Virus record (IMG/VR): IMGVR_UViG_3300031784_000179
Location: 1-26,212 of that record
DNA: 26,212 nucleotides
Direction: 5' to 3' (one strand)
From: a virus
The stretch's first letter is position 1; each line of letters begins with the position of its first letter. The notes beneath the pieces are model-generated. The model did not search any database and was not told where the DNA came from. It saw only the letters and a program-made list of their open reading frames with translations. Shown here piece by piece: positions 8,947 to 26,212 of this stretch. The position numbers and the translations under genes were made by a program.

Positions 8947-11900
8947 ATGAAAGCATATAGCCAATTCCTGAAGGAATTACCTTCTAAAAAGATTGTTTTT
9001 GCGTTTGGTCGCTTCCAGCCACCAACGACAGGTCACGAATTATTGGTTCGTGCAGTAGAGCGTCTTGCATCTACTCATAATGCTTCTCATGTAATCTATG
9101 CGTCCAGAACTCAGGACAAAACTAAAAACCCACTCCCAGTAGATCGTAAGGTTTACTATCTCAAAAGAATGTTTCCAACAGCAAAATTTATGGCTGCTGG
9201 TCCATCAACAAGAACATTCATCGAAGTTGCTAAAGAACTTAATAAAAAATACAAAGATATTATTATGGTCGCAGGAAGCGATCGTGTTGTAGAGTACACC
9301 AAACTGTTAAATCAGTACAACGGCAAAGAATTTAACTTTAACACAATACAAGTAGTGTCTGCTGGTGAGCGTGATCCAGATAGCGATGATGCAACTGGAA
9401 TGTCTGGTACCAAAATGAGAGAAGCTGCTAAAAAAGGCGATTTTGATACATTCAAAAAGGGATTACCAACAACTCTTACCACAATGGATGGTCGTCGTTT
9501 GATGAACGAAATCCGTCAAGCAATGGGTCTTGATGTTGTTAAGGAACAAGTTACAGTTACTGATTGGTTACGAGAGTCATACCACAGAGGCGAAATTTTC
9601 AAAGTTGGTCAGATAGTTGAATCAAACGGAGAGAGATATGAAATTCTTGATAGAGGCTCCAATTATCTTACTGTGGTTGATACTTCTGGTAATACACATC
9701 GTAAGTGGTTGCACAATGTAACAGTTGTTGAAGATTACCAAGAAACCGAAGACACAAGCGATTTCTCATATAAGAATTATAAACCACAAAACATTAAACA
9801 TCCACAAGTTATTGCAGCATTTTCTAGACTAACATCTAGAGATGATGTTGATCCAGTTGCAGTTCTTAACGCATTAAAATCAACTGACGAGTATCATTCT
9901 ATTTTAAATAAAGCAGTTGAATACGATGAGATTAGCGAAGAAGAAGTTGACCAATTTAATTCGTCTATTCAGATGGCTCAAGAATATCTGATGAAACTTG
10001 GAGAGTTACACCACCACGCAGATTACATTAACCACGCAATTCACGATATTGATCAAGTGCGTGCGCAGTACCATATGGAAAAAGAAGAGGGCATGGAAGA
10101 ATCTATGAAAACTTTTAAAGAACTAATAGAGATGAAGTTCAGTTCATCAGACAAAATAAAAGTGGCAAGAATCATTGCTGATGCTCTTGGTGTTCCTGAT
10201 GTTGAAAAATCGTCATCAGCAGATCAACTTGTTAATAATGCGCTAAGGAAAATACGCAATAAACCTATGCGTCCAGAATATATGTCTGTTCTTAAAAATA
10301 TGCTACAAACAGCAAGAGAAGCAGGCATCAACTATGATGAGAAACTTGTTCCAGGAAAGATTGAAGAAGGATACGATGAGATTGAAACTTCTGACACAAA
10401 ATTAGACAAGCGTGGTAGAAAAATCCGTGCCCATACATTGCGTTTTAAGAATTCAGAAAAAGAAGATGACAAAGAAGAAGTAAAGGAAGGATTAAAACCA
10501 GAACATAATATGCGTCCAGGTTGGATGATAAAGGGTGATCCAGAGTTGGCTGCTAAACTGAAAAAAAGTAAAGAAATTTTAAAAGCACGTAAAGCAGCTT
10601 ATGGAAATCCTGCAGCTGGTAAATCTGTTAAAGAAGAAACAGAACTTGACGAATCGCACGTAGAGTTTAGAATTGATCATCGTCAGAAAGTTACTCCTGG
10701 TCATGAGAAAACATTTAAAGATCATGACGCTAAAGTTTCAGAAATAAGCGACAAAGCAACATATGTAAAAGTTCCTGCTGATAAAGCAAATGCGTTTAAA
10801 GCAGCAATGAAGTCTAAACATAATACGCATTTAGAACTTGCTGAAGAATTTGAACTGATTGATAATGCTCTTAATGCATTAGAAGAAGCGATTTCAACAA
10901 TCGACAAAGGCGAGTACGATTACGAAGGCGCAATGGCAAGAACTCAACTGCAAACAGTAGTAAGAAATTCTCAGGAACTTATTAACATGCTGTCAATGGA
11001 TGACAATATGCCAGAATGGGTTCAATCAAAAATAACATTGGCTCAGGATTATATTTCAAGCGTAAGAGATTATCTAAAGTCGAGAGAAGAACTCGGCGAG
11101 GCTACTGCGTATTACAACAAACCATCTTTCTTAAAGAAAATGTCACGTATCGCTAAACAAGAACGCCAAGCACGTGAGAAGAAAGAAGCAGAACAAAAGA
11201 AACAAGTTAAAGAGGAATCGTCTTCTGTTTATGATAACCATATAAAAGGTCATTCTGACTACGGATCAATTGTTAAAAAACATGGTGTTATAAAAACAAA
11301 ACAAATAATTCGTCATTTGAAAACTGAAAGAGAATCAATGAGGAAATCTGACTGGGCAGGTCCTGCTCATTTAAAGAAACATGATTATGCTATTCGTGGT
11401 TTAAGTCGTGCTTTGGGTGAAGAAAAAATTGAGTATGAAGAGCATGAGCAATCTACATACGATGATAGTAAGTTCGTTGTTGGAGATACAGGAAAACTTA
11501 CATATGATGCTATGAAGAGATTTCTTGGAATTCAAAATGTATCAGATTTAGAGAATTTAAAAAACAAATCTTCATTCACTATGGCACAAAAAAGATACAT
11601 GCATGAAGAAACTGAAGAAGAAAATTTTGACGAAGAAGATTTCGATGACGATATCACAAGTATGTCAGAGCCAGAACATATTATCGATGCCTATGATGAT
11701 GAAGAATTCGCAATCGTTGATGATGAGAGCGGAGAAGAATTAGACACTGATGGATACGAAGAAGAAGATAAAGAAGAAGAAGCAAAGATAAAAGAAGGTA
11801 AAATTATTATTCTTGAGATCTCTCGTATGGAGCGTATTCGCCGTAAGCAGAGATTTGCTAGAACAAAGTCTAAACGTGAAGTTCGTGCTCAGATTGCGCT

Positions 11901-12138: not shown

Positions 12139-13187
12139 AAACATTTAAATGGTTCATAACTGAAGAATACGAATCTCTGTATTTGGAAGAATTAAATGAA
12201 GCAGTAGATGATGCTACTAAAGAAGGTGGTGTTTCAAATAATACCAAAGGTGTATTGCATGAACTTCTAGTTGGTAGACATTTAAACAATGGCAAACATC
12301 TAGAGAAGCACAAAAACGAAAACGATGAGACACCCCAACAAGCACATGATCGTTTAGAGAAACAAATACATCCGAATGATTACAACAGGATTGCAGCTAA
12401 TGCAAAATCTGCTGCTGCACACATTAAAGCGCATATAGATTCTACTCACAAGGGTCATGTAATTCATGCAGTTCATTGGACTTCAAAACCTGGAGACACA
12501 GAAAAGGTAACAGGACATAAAGCAAGTCAGAAAGAAGATTCTTCTGATGTATATGTTACTACTAAACATCCAAAAACAGGTAAAGAAACACATCATGGTA
12601 TAAGTTTAAAGGTCAGCGATAAATCAAATAAGAACATTCCAGCATCAAGTCTTGGTATGGAATCAGGTGGTTCGAAAGCCAGAGAACACTTTAATGCACA
12701 CAAAGCTGCTATTCTTAAAGCGCATCCTGATTTGAGTGGTAAAAATAAAGTAGAACGTAAAGAAATTCTTAAAAGTAATCCTAAAATGCAAGCGGATATA
12801 AAGAAACGCAATCAAGATCTATTGCATAAAGTTGCCCATAGTCATGCTTCTGAATTACAACATCATTTAGATTCTGGTAATCACGAGCATGTTGTTAAGC
12901 ATATTCGTGAGGTTCTTCATGCCCATTCAACTCCAGCTGAAGAAAAAGGACATACTTTTATAAAACATACAACATATCAAACTGCTAAAGGTGTTCAGCA
13001 TCATACAAGCAAACCAAGCGAAGATCATGAACATATTCTTAAAGATCACAAGAATATTACAGTAAAATCTAGTGGTGGTTCAGTACACTTCTATCACAAT
13101 GGTAAAAAGTTTGCTTCTCAAGCCCACAAGTTTGACTCTCAATCAGACCCATTAAGTTCATTAAAAAGCGCAGGGAGGGCTACATAA
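12135..13187 (+). CDS. Possible PD-(D/E)XK-like protein with capsid-targeting-like N terminus
   Basis: 350 residues, strikingly rich in His and Lys. The N terminus MKTFKWFITE closely resembles the T4 internal-protein capsid-targeting peptide, and a second candidate protease site LNE/A follows at residues 20-23. The core has a helix with Glu43 (GVLHELLVGRHL), then SSDVYV (Asp138) and GISLKVSDK (Lys159): helix Glu, Asp and xLK 21 residues later, the order of a PD-(D/E)XK nuclease site with Ser in place of the second acidic residue. The C-terminal half is a long His-rich helical region that could bind metal or nucleic acid. It overlaps the upstream gene by 4 bp and abuts the next. Nuclease activity is inference; a purely structural role is possible. 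Confidence 0.7.
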   Translation: MKTFKWFITEEYESLYLEELNEAVDDATKEGGVSNNTKGVLHELLVGRHLNNGKHLEKHKNENDETPQQAHDRLEKQIHPNDYNRIAANAKSAAAHIKAHIDSTHKGHVIHAVHWTSKPGDTEKVTGHKASQKEDSSDVYVTTKHPKTGKETHHGISLKVSDKSNKNIPASSLGMESGGSKAREHFNAHKAAILKAHPDLSGKNKVERKEILKSNPKMQADIKKRNQDLLHKVAHSHASELQHHLDSGNHEHVVKHIREVLHAHSTPAEEKGHTFIKHTTYQTAKGVQHHTSKPSEDHEHILKDHKNITVKSSGGSVHFYHNGKKFASQAHKFDSQSDPLSSLKSAGRAT

Positions 13188-20417: not shown

Positions 20418-22214
20418 ATGCAAGGCACCATTAATGGGTTGGTAGTAGATTATAGCAGAGATAGTTTGTTTGATTCACTTGGTGTAAAAAGACTGCGTGA
20501 ATCATATATGAAAGAAGAAGAGCAATCCCCACAAGAAAGATTTGCGTATGTATCGAATACTTTTAGTAGTAATCGTGAGCATGCTCAGCGCTTGTACGAC
20601 TATTCGTCCAGGCATTGGTTGTCATATTCAACACCAATTCTATCCTTTGGGAGAAGTAAAAGGGGTATGCCTATCTCTTGTTTTTTAAATTATATTGAAG
20701 ATACAGCGGAGGGACTAGTTGACAATCTTAGTGAAACTAATTGGCTTAGTATGCTTGGTGGCGGTGTTGGTATTGGTTTTGGTATTCGTTCGGCAGATGA
20801 TAAATCTACTGGTGTCATGCCTCACCTCAAAATTTACGATGCCAGTTCTTTGGCATATCGCCAAGGTCGTACTCGTCGTGGCAGCTATGCTGCTTATCTC
20901 GACATTAGCCATCCAGATATTATCCCTTTCTTAGAAATGCGCAAGCCAACTGGAGACCAAAATCTCCGTTGTCTTAATCTGCATCATGCGATAAACATTC
21001 CCGATTCATTTATGCAAATTATTGAGAAATGTATGCTTGATCCAGAAGCAGATGATTCCTGGGAATTAAAAGATCCACACAGCGGAGAGATTCGTGAAGT
21101 TGTTTCTGCTCGTGCTTTGTGGCAACAAATTCTAGAACTACGTATGGTGACAGGTGAACCCTACATTCACTTCATCGATACAAGCAATCGTCATCTACCA
21201 CAATGGTTAAAAGATAAAGGTTTAAAAGTTCACCAATCAAACCTTTGTTCAGAAATTATTTTACCAACTAATGAAGAAAGAACAGCTGTTTGCTGTTTGT
21301 CGTCGCTAAACTTGGAGTATTATGATGAATGGAAAAACGAACCTTTATTCTTACGTGATGTTGCTGAGATGTTGGATAATGTCTTGCAGTTTTTTATTGA
21401 CAATGCTCCTGACGCCATTAGTCGTGCCAGATATAGTGCTAAACAAGAACGAAGCATTGGTATTGGTGCTTTGGGGTGGCATGCATATCTTCAGCGCAAT
21501 AATTTTCCTTGGGAATCGGCGATGGCTGTCGGAAGAAACAAACAAATTTTTAAACACATCAGAGAGGGATTAGATCGTGCTAATAAAGAATTGGGAACTG
21601 AGCGAGGCGAAGCGCCTGATGCAGTGGGTACTGGGAATCGCTTTAGTCATCTTATGGCTATTGCTCCCAATGCTTCTTCTTCCATTCTTATGGGCAACAC
21701 TAGTCCTTCTATTGAACCTTATCGTGCCAATGCTTATCGGCAGGATACTCTTTCGGGTTCTTCGTTGAACAAAAACAAATATCTTGACAAAATTATTAAG
21801 GAGAAGTGTGATGCAGACAGTAAGCTGGACTATAACGAAGTCTGGTCAAGTATTATCGCCAACGATGGAAGTGTTCAACATCTCGAGTTCCTTACAGAAT
21901 GGGAGAAAGATGTTTTCAAAACTTCAATGGAACTCGATCAGCGATGGCTTGTACAGCATGCAGCAGACAGGCAAGAATATATTGATCAAGCACAATCACT
22001 TAACTTATTCTTTAGACCAGATTCCCACATCAAATATGTACACGCAGTACACTTCCAAGCATGGAAAGAGGGTCTCAAAACACTTTACTATTGCCGAAGT
22101 GAGAAAATTGGCAAAGCTGATAAAGTTGCAAAGAAAATTGAACGAGAAGTAATTCAAGAGATTGATTTAAAATCTCTCGCTGAGGGAAATGATTGTCTTG
22201 CATGTGAGGGATAA
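20418..22214 (+). CDS. nrdA: Class I ribonucleotide reductase large subunit NrdA
   Basis: 598 residues with GGAG 6 bases before ATG 20418. The ten-stranded barrel active site is intact: Cys88 (ISCFLNY), NLCSE with the thiyl-radical Cys277 and Glu279, Cys292/293 (CCLSSLNL), and the radical-transfer LYYCRS tyrosine pair near the C terminus. The last residues end in CLACEG, the CxxC pair that shuttles electrons from thioredoxin or glutaredoxin. It is much shorter than E. coli NrdA (761) because the N-terminal ATP-cone is missing, so dATP shut-off is probably absent, which suits phage demand. It needs NrdB, encoded at 24098 after an inserted group of lipid-type genes; nrdA and nrdB are normally adjacent. 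Confidence 0.95.
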   Translation: MQGTINGLVVDYSRDSLFDSLGVKRLRESYMKEEEQSPQERFAYVSNTFSSNREHAQRLYDYSSRHWLSYSTPILSFGRSKRGMPISCFLNYIEDTAEGLVDNLSETNWLSMLGGGVGIGFGIRSADDKSTGVMPHLKIYDASSLAYRQGRTRRGSYAAYLDISHPDIIPFLEMRKPTGDQNLRCLNLHHAINIPDSFMQIIEKCMLDPEADDSWELKDPHSGEIREVVSARALWQQILELRMVTGEPYIHFIDTSNRHLPQWLKDKGLKVHQSNLCSEIILPTNEERTAVCCLSSLNLEYYDEWKNEPLFLRDVAEMLDNVLQFFIDNAPDAISRARYSAKQERSIGIGALGWHAYLQRNNFPWESAMAVGRNKQIFKHIREGLDRANKELGTERGEAPDAVGTGNRFSHLMAIAPNASSSILMGNTSPSIEPYRANAYRQDTLSGSSLNKNKYLDKIIKEKCDADSKLDYNEVWSSIIANDGSVQHLEFLTEWEKDVFKTSMELDQRWLVQHAADRQEYIDQAQSLNLFFRPDSHIKYVHAVHFQAWKEGLKTLYYCRSEKIGKADKVAKKIEREVIQEIDLKSLAEGNDCLACEG

Positions 22215-23003
22215 ATGCATTACAAAAGCATATTCGTTAGTGATGTGCATTTAGGTACAAAAGACTGCAAAGCAGACTTACTAAATAATTTTCTAAAACA
22301 TAACACCTGTGAGACATTATATCTCATAGGTGACATTATTGATGCTTGGAAAATACAACGCAATAAGTGGAGATGGAAACAGAGCCATACAAATGTGGTT
22401 CGTAGAGTTCTTGGTTATGCTAAACGTGGTGTTCGTGTAGTCTATGTTAGTGGTAATCATGATGAGTTTTTAAGACCAATGATACCTTATGGTTTGTCTT
22501 TTGGTAAGATAGAATTGTGCAATCAATGTGAACATAATGGCATTGATGGGAAACGATATCTTGTTGTTCATGGAGATTTATTTGATGGTATCACTAGACT
22601 AGCGCCATGGATTAGTTTTCTAGGAGATAAGGCATACGACTTTGTTCTTAATCTCAATAGTAAATATAACTGGATTCGGCATCGTATGGGGTTTGGTTAT
22701 TTTAGTCTTAGTAAGTTTCTTAAGCATAAAGTTAAAAAAGCAGTAGATTTTATTTTTCAATTCGAAAAAAATCTTGCTGTATATTGTAAGAAAAAAGGTT
22801 ATGATGGTGTTATATGCGGACATATACACAATGCCGAGATAAAAGAAATTGAAGGAGTAATGTATATGAATGATGGTGATTGGGTTGAATCATGTACAGC
22901 ATTAGTAGAGCACTTAGATGGTAGATGGCAAATTGTTCACTGGGGAGAAATGATAAATGTGGGTACTGATTCTACTGGCAGTTCACACGAACAATCCAAA
23001 TGA
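22215..23003 (+). CDS. PlcP/LpxH-type metallophosphoesterase
   Basis: 262 residues directly after the nrdA stop with GAGG upstream. All calcineurin-type metal motifs are present: SDVHLG (Asp10, His12), GDIIDAW (Asp40), GNHDE (Asn81, His82), HGD (His119) and GHIH (His203, His205). The middle stretch FGYFSLSKFLKHKVKKAVDFI is typical of bacterial proteins named UDP-2,3-diacylglucosamine diphosphatase, a group that includes PlcP, the phospholipase C that removes phosphate head groups from membrane lipids under phosphate starvation. Because a GT4 glycosyltransferase follows, as agt follows plcP in some alphaproteobacteria, PlcP is the preferred reading; a lipid A hydrolase (LpxH-like) is the alternative. 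It would act on the inner face of the cytoplasmic membrane. Confidence 0.8.
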   Translation: MHYKSIFVSDVHLGTKDCKADLLNNFLKHNTCETLYLIGDIIDAWKIQRNKWRWKQSHTNVVRRVLGYAKRGVRVVYVSGNHDEFLRPMIPYGLSFGKIELCNQCEHNGIDGKRYLVVHGDLFDGITRLAPWISFLGDKAYDFVLNLNSKYNWIRHRMGFGYFSLSKFLKHKVKKAVDFIFQFEKNLAVYCKKKGYDGVICGHIHNAEIKEIEGVMYMNDGDWVESCTALVEHLDGRWQIVHWGEMINVGTDSTGSSHEQSK

Positions 23004-23127
23004 TGTGCCAGGAAAAGTAGAAATAAAATTTAGTAATGAACAACAATGTTTACAAGCACTGGAAAATATGACATACTGGTTAAAGTTTCAATCGTTTAAA
23101 GTGACAGGACAATGCAAAAAATCTTAA
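22957..23127 (+). CDS. Small conserved-looking protein overlapping both neighbours
   Basis: 56 residues in a second frame: it opens at ATG 22957 inside the phosphoesterase gene (GGAG at 22943-22946) and ends at TAA 23125-23127 inside the glycosyltransferase gene. Without it, 23004-23111 would be an oddly long gap in this compact genome. The protein has a hydrophobic N terminus (MWVLILLAVH), a soluble middle with Cys31 and a Cys53 near the C terminus, and resembles small two-cysteine proteins I have seen in T4-like phages. The N terminus may be a beta strand rather than a signal. Function unknown. Confidence 0.65.
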   Translation: MWVLILLAVHTNNPNDVPGKVEIKFSNEQQCLQALENMTYWLKFQSFKVTGQCKKS

Positions 23128-24095
23128 TTATTACAGACGCATGGGAACCACAAGTAAATGGTGTTGTTAGGACATATCAAAACACTATTCATGAACTTGA
23201 GAAGAATGGTAAGGTTGTTGATGTTATACATCCTTATTGCGTTGGTTTTAAAAGAGTTAAATTTCCAGCATATCCTGAAATAGAACTTGTGATAAATCCA
23301 TGGAAAATGAAACAGAAAATCTGGGTATCTTTATATGAAGGATGGAAAATACACATAGCAACTGAAGGACCACTTGGAATTTATGCTCGTATGTTACTTC
23401 GTAAGAAAGAATTCACAACTTGCTATCATACACAATTTCCAGAGTTTATTCAAAAGAGAACAAAGATTCCTGCTTCTGTGTTCTATCCTTTCTATCGTTG
23501 GTTTCATAACAATGCTAGATCAACAATGGTTCCCACACAAACTATGTGTGACATGTTAATCAGCAAAGGATTTACTAAAGTTGATGTATGGTCTCGTGGT
23601 GTAGATACAAAAGTTTTTAATCCGAGTCGTAGAAATAAACCATCGCATTATATTGTTTGTGTAAGTAGAGTTTCTAAAGAAAAAGGTTTAGACGATTTTT
23701 GTAAATTAAAAGGTAAAAAGGTTTTGGTTGGTGATGGACCATACCTAAATGAATTAAGAAAAAAATTTCCAGAAGTAGATTTTGTTGGAACTAAAGTTGG
23801 TGTTGAATTAGCTGAACTTGTAGCAAATGCAGATGTGTTTGTATTTCCAAGCCAAACTGATACCTTTGGTATAGTTATATTAGAAGCAATAGCGTGCGGT
23901 ACTCCAGTTGCAAGTTATGAGCAACCTGGACCGATAGAGGTAATTAATCTTATGTATAATGGAATGTATAGTGGTAACTTAGCACATAATGTCGAAGCAT
24001 GTAAATTAATAAACAGAGTAGAAGTATTCGAGTCATCAAAAAAATGGTCTTGGAAACAATCAACAAAACAGTTTTTAGAAATAATCGGAGAGTAG
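23112..24095 (+). CDS. GT4-family glycosyltransferase, Agt-like
   Basis: 327 residues. The start KILIITDAWEPQVNGVVRTYQNTI is the standard GT4 acceptor loop shared with SqdX, MgtA and alpha-mannosyltransferases; CYHTQFPEF and VPTQTM follow, then the donor-binding half with VSRVSKEKGLDDF, VGDGPYLNELR and FPSQTDTFGIVILEAIACG (ExxxxxxE donor motif region). Such enzymes transfer hexoses to diacylglycerol, phosphatidylinositol or polyprenyl acceptors at the inner membrane. It is encoded just after the PlcP-type phosphoesterase, which would generate diacylglycerol, so glycosyl-diacylglycerol synthesis is the best guess. AGGA precedes ATG 23112. The alternatives are LPS or capsule sugar transfer. Codon use looks like the phage neighbours, so transfer from bacteria would be old. 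Confidence 0.82.
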   Translation: MQKILIITDAWEPQVNGVVRTYQNTIHELEKNGKVVDVIHPYCVGFKRVKFPAYPEIELVINPWKMKQKIWVSLYEGWKIHIATEGPLGIYARMLLRKKEFTTCYHTQFPEFIQKRTKIPASVFYPFYRWFHNNARSTMVPTQTMCDMLISKGFTKVDVWSRGVDTKVFNPSRRNKPSHYIVCVSRVSKEKGLDDFCKLKGKKVLVGDGPYLNELRKKFPEVDFVGTKVGVELAELVANADVFVFPSQTDTFGIVILEAIACGTPVASYEQPGPIEVINLMYNGMYSGNLAHNVEACKLINRVEVFESSKKWSWKQSTKQFLEIIGE

Positions 24096-24097
24096 GA

Positions 24098-25093
24098 ATG
24101 GCGCATAAAAGAGAAAAATTAAAATTAACAGACGATAGAAACTCGTTTAAACCATTTAATTACCCATGGGCATATGATGCTTGGTTGAAGCATGAACAAG
24201 CGCACTGGTTACATACAGAAGTTCCTATGATGGAAGATGTAAAAGACTGGAAGAAAAAACTTACAAATGAAGAGAAACATTTCTTAACAAATATTTTTAG
24301 ATTCTTTGTTCAAGGAGATGTTGATGTTGCTGGTGGGTATGTTAATAATTATTTACCATACTTTAAACAACCAGAAGTTCGTATGATGTTGCTTGGCTTT
24401 TCTGCTAGAGAAGCGTTACATGTTGCTGCGTATAGTCACTTGATTGAGACAGTTGGTATGCCAGAATCAACTTATAATGAGTTTCTCGAGTATGCGCAGA
24501 TGAGGGACAAACATGACTACTTTATGGCATTATCTAAAGCCAATGGCACTGCCGAATCAGTAGCAACAAATATTGCAGCATTCTCTGCTTTTACTGAGGG
24601 CATGCAATTATTCTCATCATTCATTATGTTGCTCAATTTTCCTCGTCATGGTATGATGAAGGGAATGGGTCAGATTGTCACATGGTCAATCGTCGACGAG
24701 ACAATGCATGCTGAGTCTATGATTAAGTTGTTTAGAACTTATGTAGAAGAGAATCGTGAGTTATGGAATGATGAATTGAAGAGTAAGATATATACTATTG
24801 CTGAAAAAATGGTTGAACTCGAAGATAAGTTTATTGATCTTGCTTTTAGTTTGGGTGATATGCGAGATTTGACATCAGATGATGTGAAGAAATACATTCG
24901 CTACATCGCAGATCGTCGTTTAATTTCGTTAGGTCTTAAGGGTATTTTTAAAGTTAAGAAAAATCCTCTTCCTTGGGTTGAAGAAATGATTAACGCACCA
25001 ACTCATACTAACTTTTTTGAGAATCGTGCTACTGACTATGCGAAAGGCGCATTAACAGGCGACTGGCAAGATGTTTGGGCTAAAGCTGCATAA
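24098..25093 (+). CDS. nrdB: Class I ribonucleotide reductase small subunit NrdB
   Basis: 331 residues from ATG 24098, with GGAG 7 bases upstream; a longer frame from 24044 lies in the glycosyltransferase gene and is rejected. The di-metal ligands are all present with E. coli NrdB spacing: Asp74, Glu105, His108, Glu167, Glu201 and His204. The radical tyrosine is also kept (Tyr112, four residues after His108), pointing to a tyrosyl-radical class Ia-type subunit rather than a Tyr-less subclass. It forms the active reductase with NrdA. Unusually it is separated from nrdA by about 1.9 kb of lipid-type genes. Confidence 0.95.
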   Translation: MAHKREKLKLTDDRNSFKPFNYPWAYDAWLKHEQAHWLHTEVPMMEDVKDWKKKLTNEEKHFLTNIFRFFVQGDVDVAGGYVNNYLPYFKQPEVRMMLLGFSAREALHVAAYSHLIETVGMPESTYNEFLEYAQMRDKHDYFMALSKANGTAESVATNIAAFSAFTEGMQLFSSFIMLLNFPRHGMMKGMGQIVTWSIVDETMHAESMIKLFRTYVEENRELWNDELKSKIYTIAEKMVELEDKFIDLAFSLGDMRDLTSDDVKKYIRYIADRRLISLGLKGIFKVKKNPLPWVEEMINAPTHTNFFENRATDYAKGALTGDWQDVWAKAA

Positions 25094-25731
25094 TGGCGCA
25101 CATAATAGCAAATCTTCCACCTATTAAATGTTTTGTCCGTAAACAGTTTCTATACGATTTTGCGAAAGGGCACGATGAATTAGAACCATGTTGGTGGATA
25201 AGTATTAAGTCATTAAGAGGACAAGCATTTAGAATAGAAGCATATCTAAATAACTATGGCGCTTTATATGATAAACTGCCATTACACGCATTTTGCTGGA
25301 AGCCGATTGAAGGAGTACCATTACCATTAGACTACTTACAACTTTGGGATTGTTTGTCATATGATATAACTGTGTTAAAAAAAGCACAGCTGCAATCATT
25401 AAAATGCAAATTTAAACTTAAAGACGGAAATTGGATGTATGGTACCTATCTATTCACTGTTGACTCTGCTCACCCTGATTTTAATATTCTTGACACTGGA
25501 TTTACTGAAGATCCCGAAGATCATAAATCTTATAATTTTATTATGTGTGATAATGGGCAGTTCGCTGCTCAGCCAAACAATCGTCTTATTATCCTCGAGC
25601 CTTCGTCTAATCCTCGGGAACTAAAGATGCCAGATTTTAAAGTAGCAACAAAACGCTGGTCTGTAGAAACAGATTCTAAGTGGTCATTGGGAGATACCAA
25701 TACCGTAATGTACGAAAGGCAAGATGATTGA
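25093..25731 (+). CDS. Conserved T4-like phage protein of unknown function
   Basis: 212 residues beginning on the last base of the nrdB stop (TAATG). It is beta-rich and soluble, with KCFVRKQFLYDF near the N terminus, a Trp-rich CWWISIKSLRGQAFRIEAYL strand pair and the block YGALYDKLPLHAFCWKP...LPLDYLQLWDCLSYDITV, which I recognise from T4-like marine phage genomes as an unnamed family. There is no signal, transmembrane or catalytic motif. It overlaps the desaturase gene by 8 bp. The link to nrdB is only by position. Confidence 0.78.
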   Translation: MAHIIANLPPIKCFVRKQFLYDFAKGHDELEPCWWISIKSLRGQAFRIEAYLNNYGALYDKLPLHAFCWKPIEGVPLPLDYLQLWDCLSYDITVLKKAQLQSLKCKFKLKDGNWMYGTYLFTVDSAHPDFNILDTGFTEDPEDHKSYNFIMCDNGQFAAQPNNRLIILEPSSNPRELKMPDFKVATKRWSVETDSKWSLGDTNTVMYERQDD

Positions 25732-26212
25732 ATTAGTTTATCTGTTGGTAATGACACACATTACCATTGTTTGTGTTACTTTGTTTTTACATAGAGGGCA
25801 AACACATAGAGGGTTAGAGTTTCATCCAGTTCTTTCGCATTTTATGAGATTCTGGTTGTGGTTAACAACTGGTATGATAACAAAAGAATGGGTTGCGATA
25901 CATCGTAAACATCATCAGAACTCCGATAAAGAAGGCGATCCCCATAGTCCTCACAACGAAGGTATCTGGTTTGTTTTGTTCGCTGGAGTTTCTTGCTATG
26001 TTCAATCCGCAAGAGATAAAGAAATGATTCAGAAGTATGGTGTCGGTACTCCAGATGATTGGGTAGAAAAAAATATCTATTCTAAATTTCCATACGCTGG
26101 AATAGTGCTCATGCTAGCAATTAGTTTAATGTTGTTAGGATGGTGGGGAATTTGGTTCTGGGCAATTCAAATGGTATGGATTCCATTCTGGGCAGCAGGT
26201 GTTGTGAATGGC
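25724..26212 (+). CDS. Fatty acid desaturase, 3' end outside window
   Basis: 163 residues are visible and the frame is still open at the last base. It starts at ATG 25724 inside the end of the previous gene, with AAGG 4 bases upstream. Two of the three membrane desaturase histidine boxes are present: HRGQTH (His23-His28, HxxxxH) and HRKHH (His60-His64, HxxHH). They flank hydrophobic segments at about 4-22 and 37-55, and two more membrane helices lie around 125-160. These di-iron enzymes introduce double bonds into acyl chains of membrane lipids (delta-9 type for acyl-CoA or acyl-ACP relatives). The third box should lie in the missing part. With the PlcP-like and GT4 genes it forms a lipid-directed group. 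Confidence 0.88.
   Translation, partial: MIELVYLLVMTHITIVCVTLFLHRGQTHRGLEFHPVLSHFMRFWLWLTTGMITKEWVAIHRKHHQNSDKEGDPHSPHNEGIWFVLFAGVSCYVQSARDKEMIQKYGVGTPDDWVEKNIYSKFPYAGIVLMLAISLMLLGWWGIWFWAIQMVWIPFWAAGVVNG

Follow-up and report, generated by a model that had tools for sequence, protein, structure and literature searches.

The stretch of DNA analysed here (the window) is a virus record of 26,212 bases, from a phage known only from metagenomes. Close to its 3' end a metallophosphoesterase gene and a GT4 glycosyltransferase gene are located between the genes for the two ribonucleotide reductase chains, at exactly the positions given in an earlier note based on the sequence alone. The following features were identified, all on the + strand:

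20418..22214 (+), nrdA, ribonucleotide reductase large chain (PF02867, 2.7e-105), its stop abutting the plcP start codon
22215..23003 (+), plcP-like gene, 262 aa metallophosphoesterase (PF00149, 2.1e-12), predicted phospholipase C acting on PE/PG head groups
22957..23127 (+), microprotein gene, 56 aa, overlapping the plcP end by 47 nt and the GT4 start by 16 nt, function unknown
23112..24095 (+), agt-like GT4 gene, 327 aa (PF00534, 9.7e-19; PF13439, 4.2e-13), predicted UDP-sugar:diacylglycerol glycosyltransferase
24044..25093 (+), nrdB ORF, ribonucleotide reductase small chain (PF00268, 3.4e-75); a later in-frame ATG at 24098, just after the GT4 stop, is a likelier start as inferred from the translation
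25724..26212 (+), DesA-type fatty-acid desaturase, cut by the window end (NF049918, 2.5e-80; PF00487, 8.2e-07, just under its cut-off)

A phrog_3704 protein is also encoded in this region. The microprotein gene and the desaturase gene were not mentioned in the earlier note. Three other IMG/VR contigs (L003, L004 and L005) carry the same genes in the same order at 97-100% identity, and a complete 236-aa copy of the desaturase is found in L004. The two genes are not a chance pair of frames, as dN/dS is 0.009-0.16 for plcP (6 pairs) and 0.095-0.16 for the GT4 (6 pairs), showing that both are under purifying selection.

Relationship of the two proteins to PlcP and Agt

The metallophosphoesterase is 55% identical over 242 aa to a PlcP from Pseudomonas aeruginosa and 46% identical over 243 aa to a PlcP from Sinorhizobium meliloti, whereas it is only 22% identical over 125 aa to Escherichia coli LpxH. 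The two references are same-species homologs found on records of a plasmid collection, and judging from their neighbouring genes they probably correspond to the products of PA3219 and SMc00171. The motifs DxH, GDxxD, GNHD, HGD and GHxH, which probably form the metal site, are conserved. Residues D10 H12, G39 D40, G80 N81, H119 G120 D121 and G202 H203 H205 are invariant in 20 sequences including LpxH, and H82 D83 are invariant in the 13 viral PlcP. In a tree of 143 rows, seven LpxH proteins (E. coli and six from beta-proteobacterial genomes) split from all 136 PlcP-type rows with support 100. Furthermore, the protein scores 35 and 43 bits against LpxH models with cut-offs of 190 and 134.

The GT4 protein is 37% identical over 331 aa to P. 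aeruginosa Agt1, an enzyme that makes MGDG from UDP-glucose and diacylglycerol (PMC8528852), and 38-43% identical to the glycosyltransferase next to plcP in 30 SAR11-like genomes, where "SAR11-like" is inferred from a size of 0.9-1.5 Mb and a GC content of 25-30%. These values are lower than the 46-58% given for the published GTcp group, but far above the under 25% given for other GT4 (PMC8231724). The same study names 13 residues in SAR11 Agt whose change abolished or almost abolished activity (G16, G82, G85, H104, R163, R190, K195, D256, T257, F258, G259, E264 and W320), and the window protein keeps all 13. The numbering was transferred by way of the SAR11-like Agt proteins, of which 23 of 30 fit all 15 positions checked at zero shift and 26 of 30 when allowing one residue. 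T162, called crucial in one figure legend of that study, is replaced by S161 in the window protein and varies among the viruses. Across 47 viral GT4 proteins 12 of the 13 positions are invariant, D256 being D in 44 and E in 3, whereas four E. coli GT4 enzymes keep only 6, 5, 5 and 3 of the 15 positions.

In a tree built with a quick method, the 47 viral GT4 rows form one side of a branch with support 100, inside a group of 107 Agt-type rows. Four E. coli LPS or colanic-acid GT4 enzymes (WaaG, WaaB, WcaC and WcaI) stay out of this group, although the forks that part them have a support of 87-89, below the mark of 95. The viral GT4 rows remain on one side also when SAR11-like Agt are added. Viral PlcP falls in two or more groups whose places shift between trees, in particular that of the PlcP type of the viral locus L116. 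A recent single capture from a host was rejected on these grounds.

Distribution of the gene pair and of the overlapping microprotein gene

Of 80 bacterial plcP loci, 64 have an Agt-like GT4 within 500 b downstream, as in the published operon (PMC4796936), and the same arrangement was found in 30 of 30 SAR11-like loci. Among viruses, 80 of 92 GT4 loci with enough sequence upstream have plcP within 300 b, 5 have it further off and 7 have no plcP in view (not dereplicated). Starting from PlcP and dereplicating by shared 15-mers, 54 loci gave 19 with an Agt-like GT4 directly downstream, 28 with a GT2 in its place, 5 with neither and 2 that were too short, i.e. a glycosyltransferase follows plcP in 47 of 52 testable loci. 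The two types never occur together in 130 viral loci (78 GT4, 41 GT2, both 0, neither 11), a set from which 11 loci that repeat a contig or the window itself, as well as loci L001 and L002, were left out. Two further viral scans gave 103 dereplicated loci. With PlcP from Pelagibacter phage Mosig as query 30 GT4, 10 GT2, 6 other and 7 short loci were found, whereas with the L116 PlcP as query 16 GT4, 33 other and 1 short locus were found. A glycosyltransferase partner is thus the rule in two sets and the exception in the third, where 33 of 49 testable loci lack a GT4 or GT2 next to plcP. The GT2 had no match in the 80 bacterial plcP loci, and a fold search with its model (pLDDT only 76.5) returned generic GT2 enzymes such as TarP and GtrB, so its acceptor is unknown.

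Confirmed viral relatives number 341 and 140 for the window's PlcP and GT4, and 109 and 200 for two other viral PlcPs (overlaps not removed), some of them on contigs of 200-340 kb. Only the best 80 of 341, 140, 581, 109 and 200 confirmed relatives were kept in the respective searches, and all fractions given here hold for the kept loci. Among named phage genomes, PlcP relatives are in Pelagibacter phage Mosig, Synechococcus phage S-SRM01 and two unannotated records, whereas the GT4 has none above 33%.

Of the 130 loci, 17 have plcP between nrdA and nrdB, 6 of them with the GT4, so the location emphasised in the earlier note holds for a minority of the viral loci. In 37 loci nrdA or nrdB is near, 54 show only plcP-GT4 within 4.5 kb, and a desaturase lies within about 4.5 kb of plcP in 18. 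PstS is located 73 b from plcP in the viral locus L054, follows the GT4 in loci L133 and L134, and is about 150 b away and divergent in Mosig. In total 5 of 30 records examined hold PstS, in 4 of them within 1.3 kb of plcP, whereas 25 do not, although many of these are fragments. In the two later scans 14 of 157 loci show PstS, 13 of them within 1.5 kb.

The earlier note suggested looking for Pho-box-type sites upstream of the pair. No Pho box was found in the window (1 weak match with 3 mismatches at 13045, far from the pair, 3.2 expected), although host Pho boxes may differ from the consensus used. A scan of the window for the T4-type TATAAATA gave no support either, and a sigma-70 scan gave 29 matches where 27.5 were expected. 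As plcP starts at the base after the nrdA stop, it is probably read with the nrd genes. No tRNA was found that could hint at the host, and the nearest relatives do not settle it: by virion protein these are a spring-water genome labelled Podoviridae at 57% and cyanophages at 50-53%, and by NrdA an Alcaligenes phage at 61% and pelagiphages at 55%.

The 56-aa microprotein gene overlaps both plcP and the GT4 gene. A profile of it hits next to plcP in 63 of 141 viral loci (window copy included, not dereplicated), with GT4 and with GT2 downstream alike, and in the two later viral sets in 10 of 157 loci, with one more hit about 1.1 kb from plcP in locus L394. This amounts to 73 of 298 viral plcP loci, compared to 0 of 110 bacterial loci (80 bacterial and 30 SAR11-like). 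In 30 records searched whole, 18 hold it, once each and always in the cassette. In pairwise comparison third codon positions change most (1630 against 1056 and 922). The predicted structure is a strand-strand-helix-strand (pLDDT 96). Fold searches gave nothing at E 0.001 or better (3e-03 at best in the viral fold library) but many uncharacterised small phage proteins, and the copy in the viral locus L132 matches phrog_5579 at 1.5e-06, the window copy only at 0.057. The overlap with both genes suggests translation in step with them. The microprotein probably acts on or with the two enzymes, but its role is a guess.

A predicted role in lipid remodelling during infection

The earlier note proposed that the pair is PlcP-Agt-like and could free phosphate for DNA synthesis while keeping the membrane intact. 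This interpretation is largely supported, although the pathway, which the note placed in several alphaproteobacteria, is not confined to these. The identity of the first protein as PlcP is well supported by homology and residues, and that of the second as Agt only slightly less so. We propose that the cassette is a viral form of the bacterial plcP-agt lipid-remodelling operon, whose enzymes have published activity (PMC4796936, PMC8231724, PMC8528852, PMC9239053). PlcP would remove the phosphorylated head group from host phosphatidylethanolamine or phosphatidylglycerol and leave diacylglycerol, onto which the GT4 would then put a glucose, galactose or glucuronic acid from a UDP-sugar, so that the membrane keeps its bulk as a phosphorus-free glycolipid. 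The freed phosphate can feed nucleotide and phage DNA synthesis, and the neighbouring nrdA, nrdB and thyX serve the same need. Enzyme activity of the phage proteins and their expression with the nrd genes are inferred. That the pair remodels lipids during infection is likely (probability about 0.8), whereas phosphate as the main gain is our best guess, somewhat more likely than not.

The same enzymes may also serve another purpose, where the phage changes the cell surface or membrane charge, for example to shut out later phages or resist antimicrobial peptides, and phosphate release is incidental. This speculation is supported by the observation that glycolipids from Agt1 and Agt2 changed polymyxin tolerance of E. 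coli (PMC8528852), by a review arguing that lipid renovation may alter phage binding (PMC9804370), and by a Ruegeria study linking aminolipids to phage attachment (PMC9938194). The use of a GT2 instead of Agt in 28 of 52 loci and the records without PstS are in line with it. However, we consider it unlikely, as the window pair lies in a nucleotide-synthesis cluster, PstS is found beside plcP in several unrelated contexts, and plcP is kept without an adjacent glycosyltransferase in many viruses, which suits phosphate release better than glycolipid display. The stand-alone plcP genes could also point to a role where diacylglycerol weakens the membrane and helps lysis, with the glycosyltransferase as a brake. 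This is very doubtful given the glycosyltransferase directly following plcP in 47 of 52 loci and the nucleotide genes around the window pair, and no lysis gene family turned up among the plcP neighbours scanned with Pfam (7 proteins).

That the pair is a true LpxH-type lipid A enzyme with an LPS or O-antigen glycosyltransferase, altering host LPS, is consistent with public annotation, which names such genes UDP-2,3-diacylglucosamine hydrolase, and with LpxH being the only solved-structure matches by sequence (E 1e-4). Nevertheless, this is highly improbable considering the LpxH scores and trees described above, the finding that 5 of 6 beta-proteobacterial genomes searched hold an over-cut-off LpxH as well as the PlcP through which they were found, and the grouping of the GT4 with Agt, although only the four E. 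coli enzymes served as controls and no SqdX or MshA sequence was placed in the tree. Equally improbable is a metallophosphoesterase working on nucleotides or DNA ends with the nrd genes beside an unrelated neighbour. The position between nrdA and nrdB and weak PHROG matches to exonuclease and metallophosphoesterase families (8.8e-08 and 9.3e-08) speak for it, whereas the full-length 46-55% identity to phospholipase PlcP and the linkage to glycosyltransferases where no nrd genes are near speak against it.

A more far-reaching reading, somewhat less likely than not, is that of a virus-made module of three genes, plcP, an overlapping microprotein and a swappable glycosyltransferase (GT4 or GT2), that mines membrane phospholipid as a phosphate store during infection and rebuilds the membrane as glycolipid, with the microprotein steering host or viral lipid enzymes. 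The 28 GT2 loci would then be a second, undescribed diacylglycerol glycosyltransferase family, and "lpxH" entries in viral auxiliary-gene surveys would in large part be plcP. Two viral surveys list lpxH among their auxiliary genes (PMC10653327, PMC9611531), and given the annotation of the Mosig and S-SRM01 genes some of these may be plcP. If phages take phosphorus from host membranes, this is a store that surveys of viral phosphorus genes (pstS, phoA, phoH) do not count, and the cassette offers a small, defined three-gene set for asking how a virus rebuilds a membrane during infection. No report of a viral plcP-agt pair was found among the open-licence PMC papers covered.

Comparison with known systems

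LpxH, the UDP-2,3-diacylglucosamine diphosphatase, belongs to the same metallophosphoesterase superfamily and is the source of the usual annotation, but forms a separate clade. The phosphate-acquisition genes pstS and phoH, which appear to be auxiliary genes of marine phages, have the same presumed benefit, phosphate for phage DNA. Those import or respond to external phosphate, whereas the present cassette would mine the host membrane.

The PlcP-like protein of Pelagibacter phage Mosig EXVC030M, annotated as "putative UDP-2,3-diacylglucosamine hydrolase", is 47% identical over 94% of the query, and its gene lies 150 b from a divergent PstS gene. No glycosyltransferase is annotated beside it, and the genome announcement does not discuss the gene in the passages searched.

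The bacterial plcP-agt lipid-remodelling operon (SAR11 PB7211_983/960, P. aeruginosa PA3219/PA3218, Methylosinus OB3b) shares with the window both protein families, the same order and strand, and the same catalytic residues in the glycosyltransferase. The cassette in the window differs in being carried by phages and set in a nucleotide-synthesis cluster, with no Pho box seen in the window, in having an overlapping microprotein gene that is absent from 110 bacterial loci, and in that the GT4 is replaced by a GT2 in many viruses.

Genes adjoining viral plcP

Between the plcP gene and the glycosyltransferase gene of the window lies a conserved, overlapping microprotein gene, which was found in 73 of 298 viral plcP loci. 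The encoded protein has two invariant cysteines and a confident strand-strand-helix-strand model.

22957-23127, microprotein gene, 56 aa
25724-26212, DesA-type fatty-acid desaturase gene

In viral loci L013 (8895-9617), L030 (8711-9481), L033 (8737-9450) and 38 others, a GT2 glycosyltransferase of about 237 aa, whose acceptor is unknown, takes the place of Agt directly after plcP. It was never seen together with the GT4 in 130 loci. In loci L366 and L369 an ORF resembling, by eye, an amidinotransferase follows plcP in place of a glycosyltransferase. A DesA-type desaturase gene lies close to viral plcP in 18 of 130 loci, abutting it in several, and is exemplified by L011 (7301-8029) and L021 (7305-8000).

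Ribonucleotide reductase neighbourhood and a bacterial contig

In loci L028, L047 and L056, plcP lies directly behind an nrdA that is only 21-23% identical to that of the window, so the site beside RNR genes recurs with a different RNR type. In locus L077, whose plcP has no glycosyltransferase beside it, nrdB is followed by an ORF (9739-10632) that appears, by eye, to be sugar-nucleotide epimerase-like. A PlcP grouping with the viral ones is also encoded on a Methylotenera MAG contig (L162, 4989-5756), where the neighbouring ORFs look phage-like by eye, possibly representing a prophage.

Annotation of the viral genes

The protein encoded at 25093-25731 of the window is labelled "ferredoxin" by its PHROG hit (1.8e-81), yet Pfam finds nothing in it and the label looks doubtful. 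The viral "lpxH" entries in auxiliary-gene surveys (PMC10653327, PMC9611531) and in phage annotations, such as those of Mosig (L001) and S-SRM01 (L002), may be mislabelled plcP.
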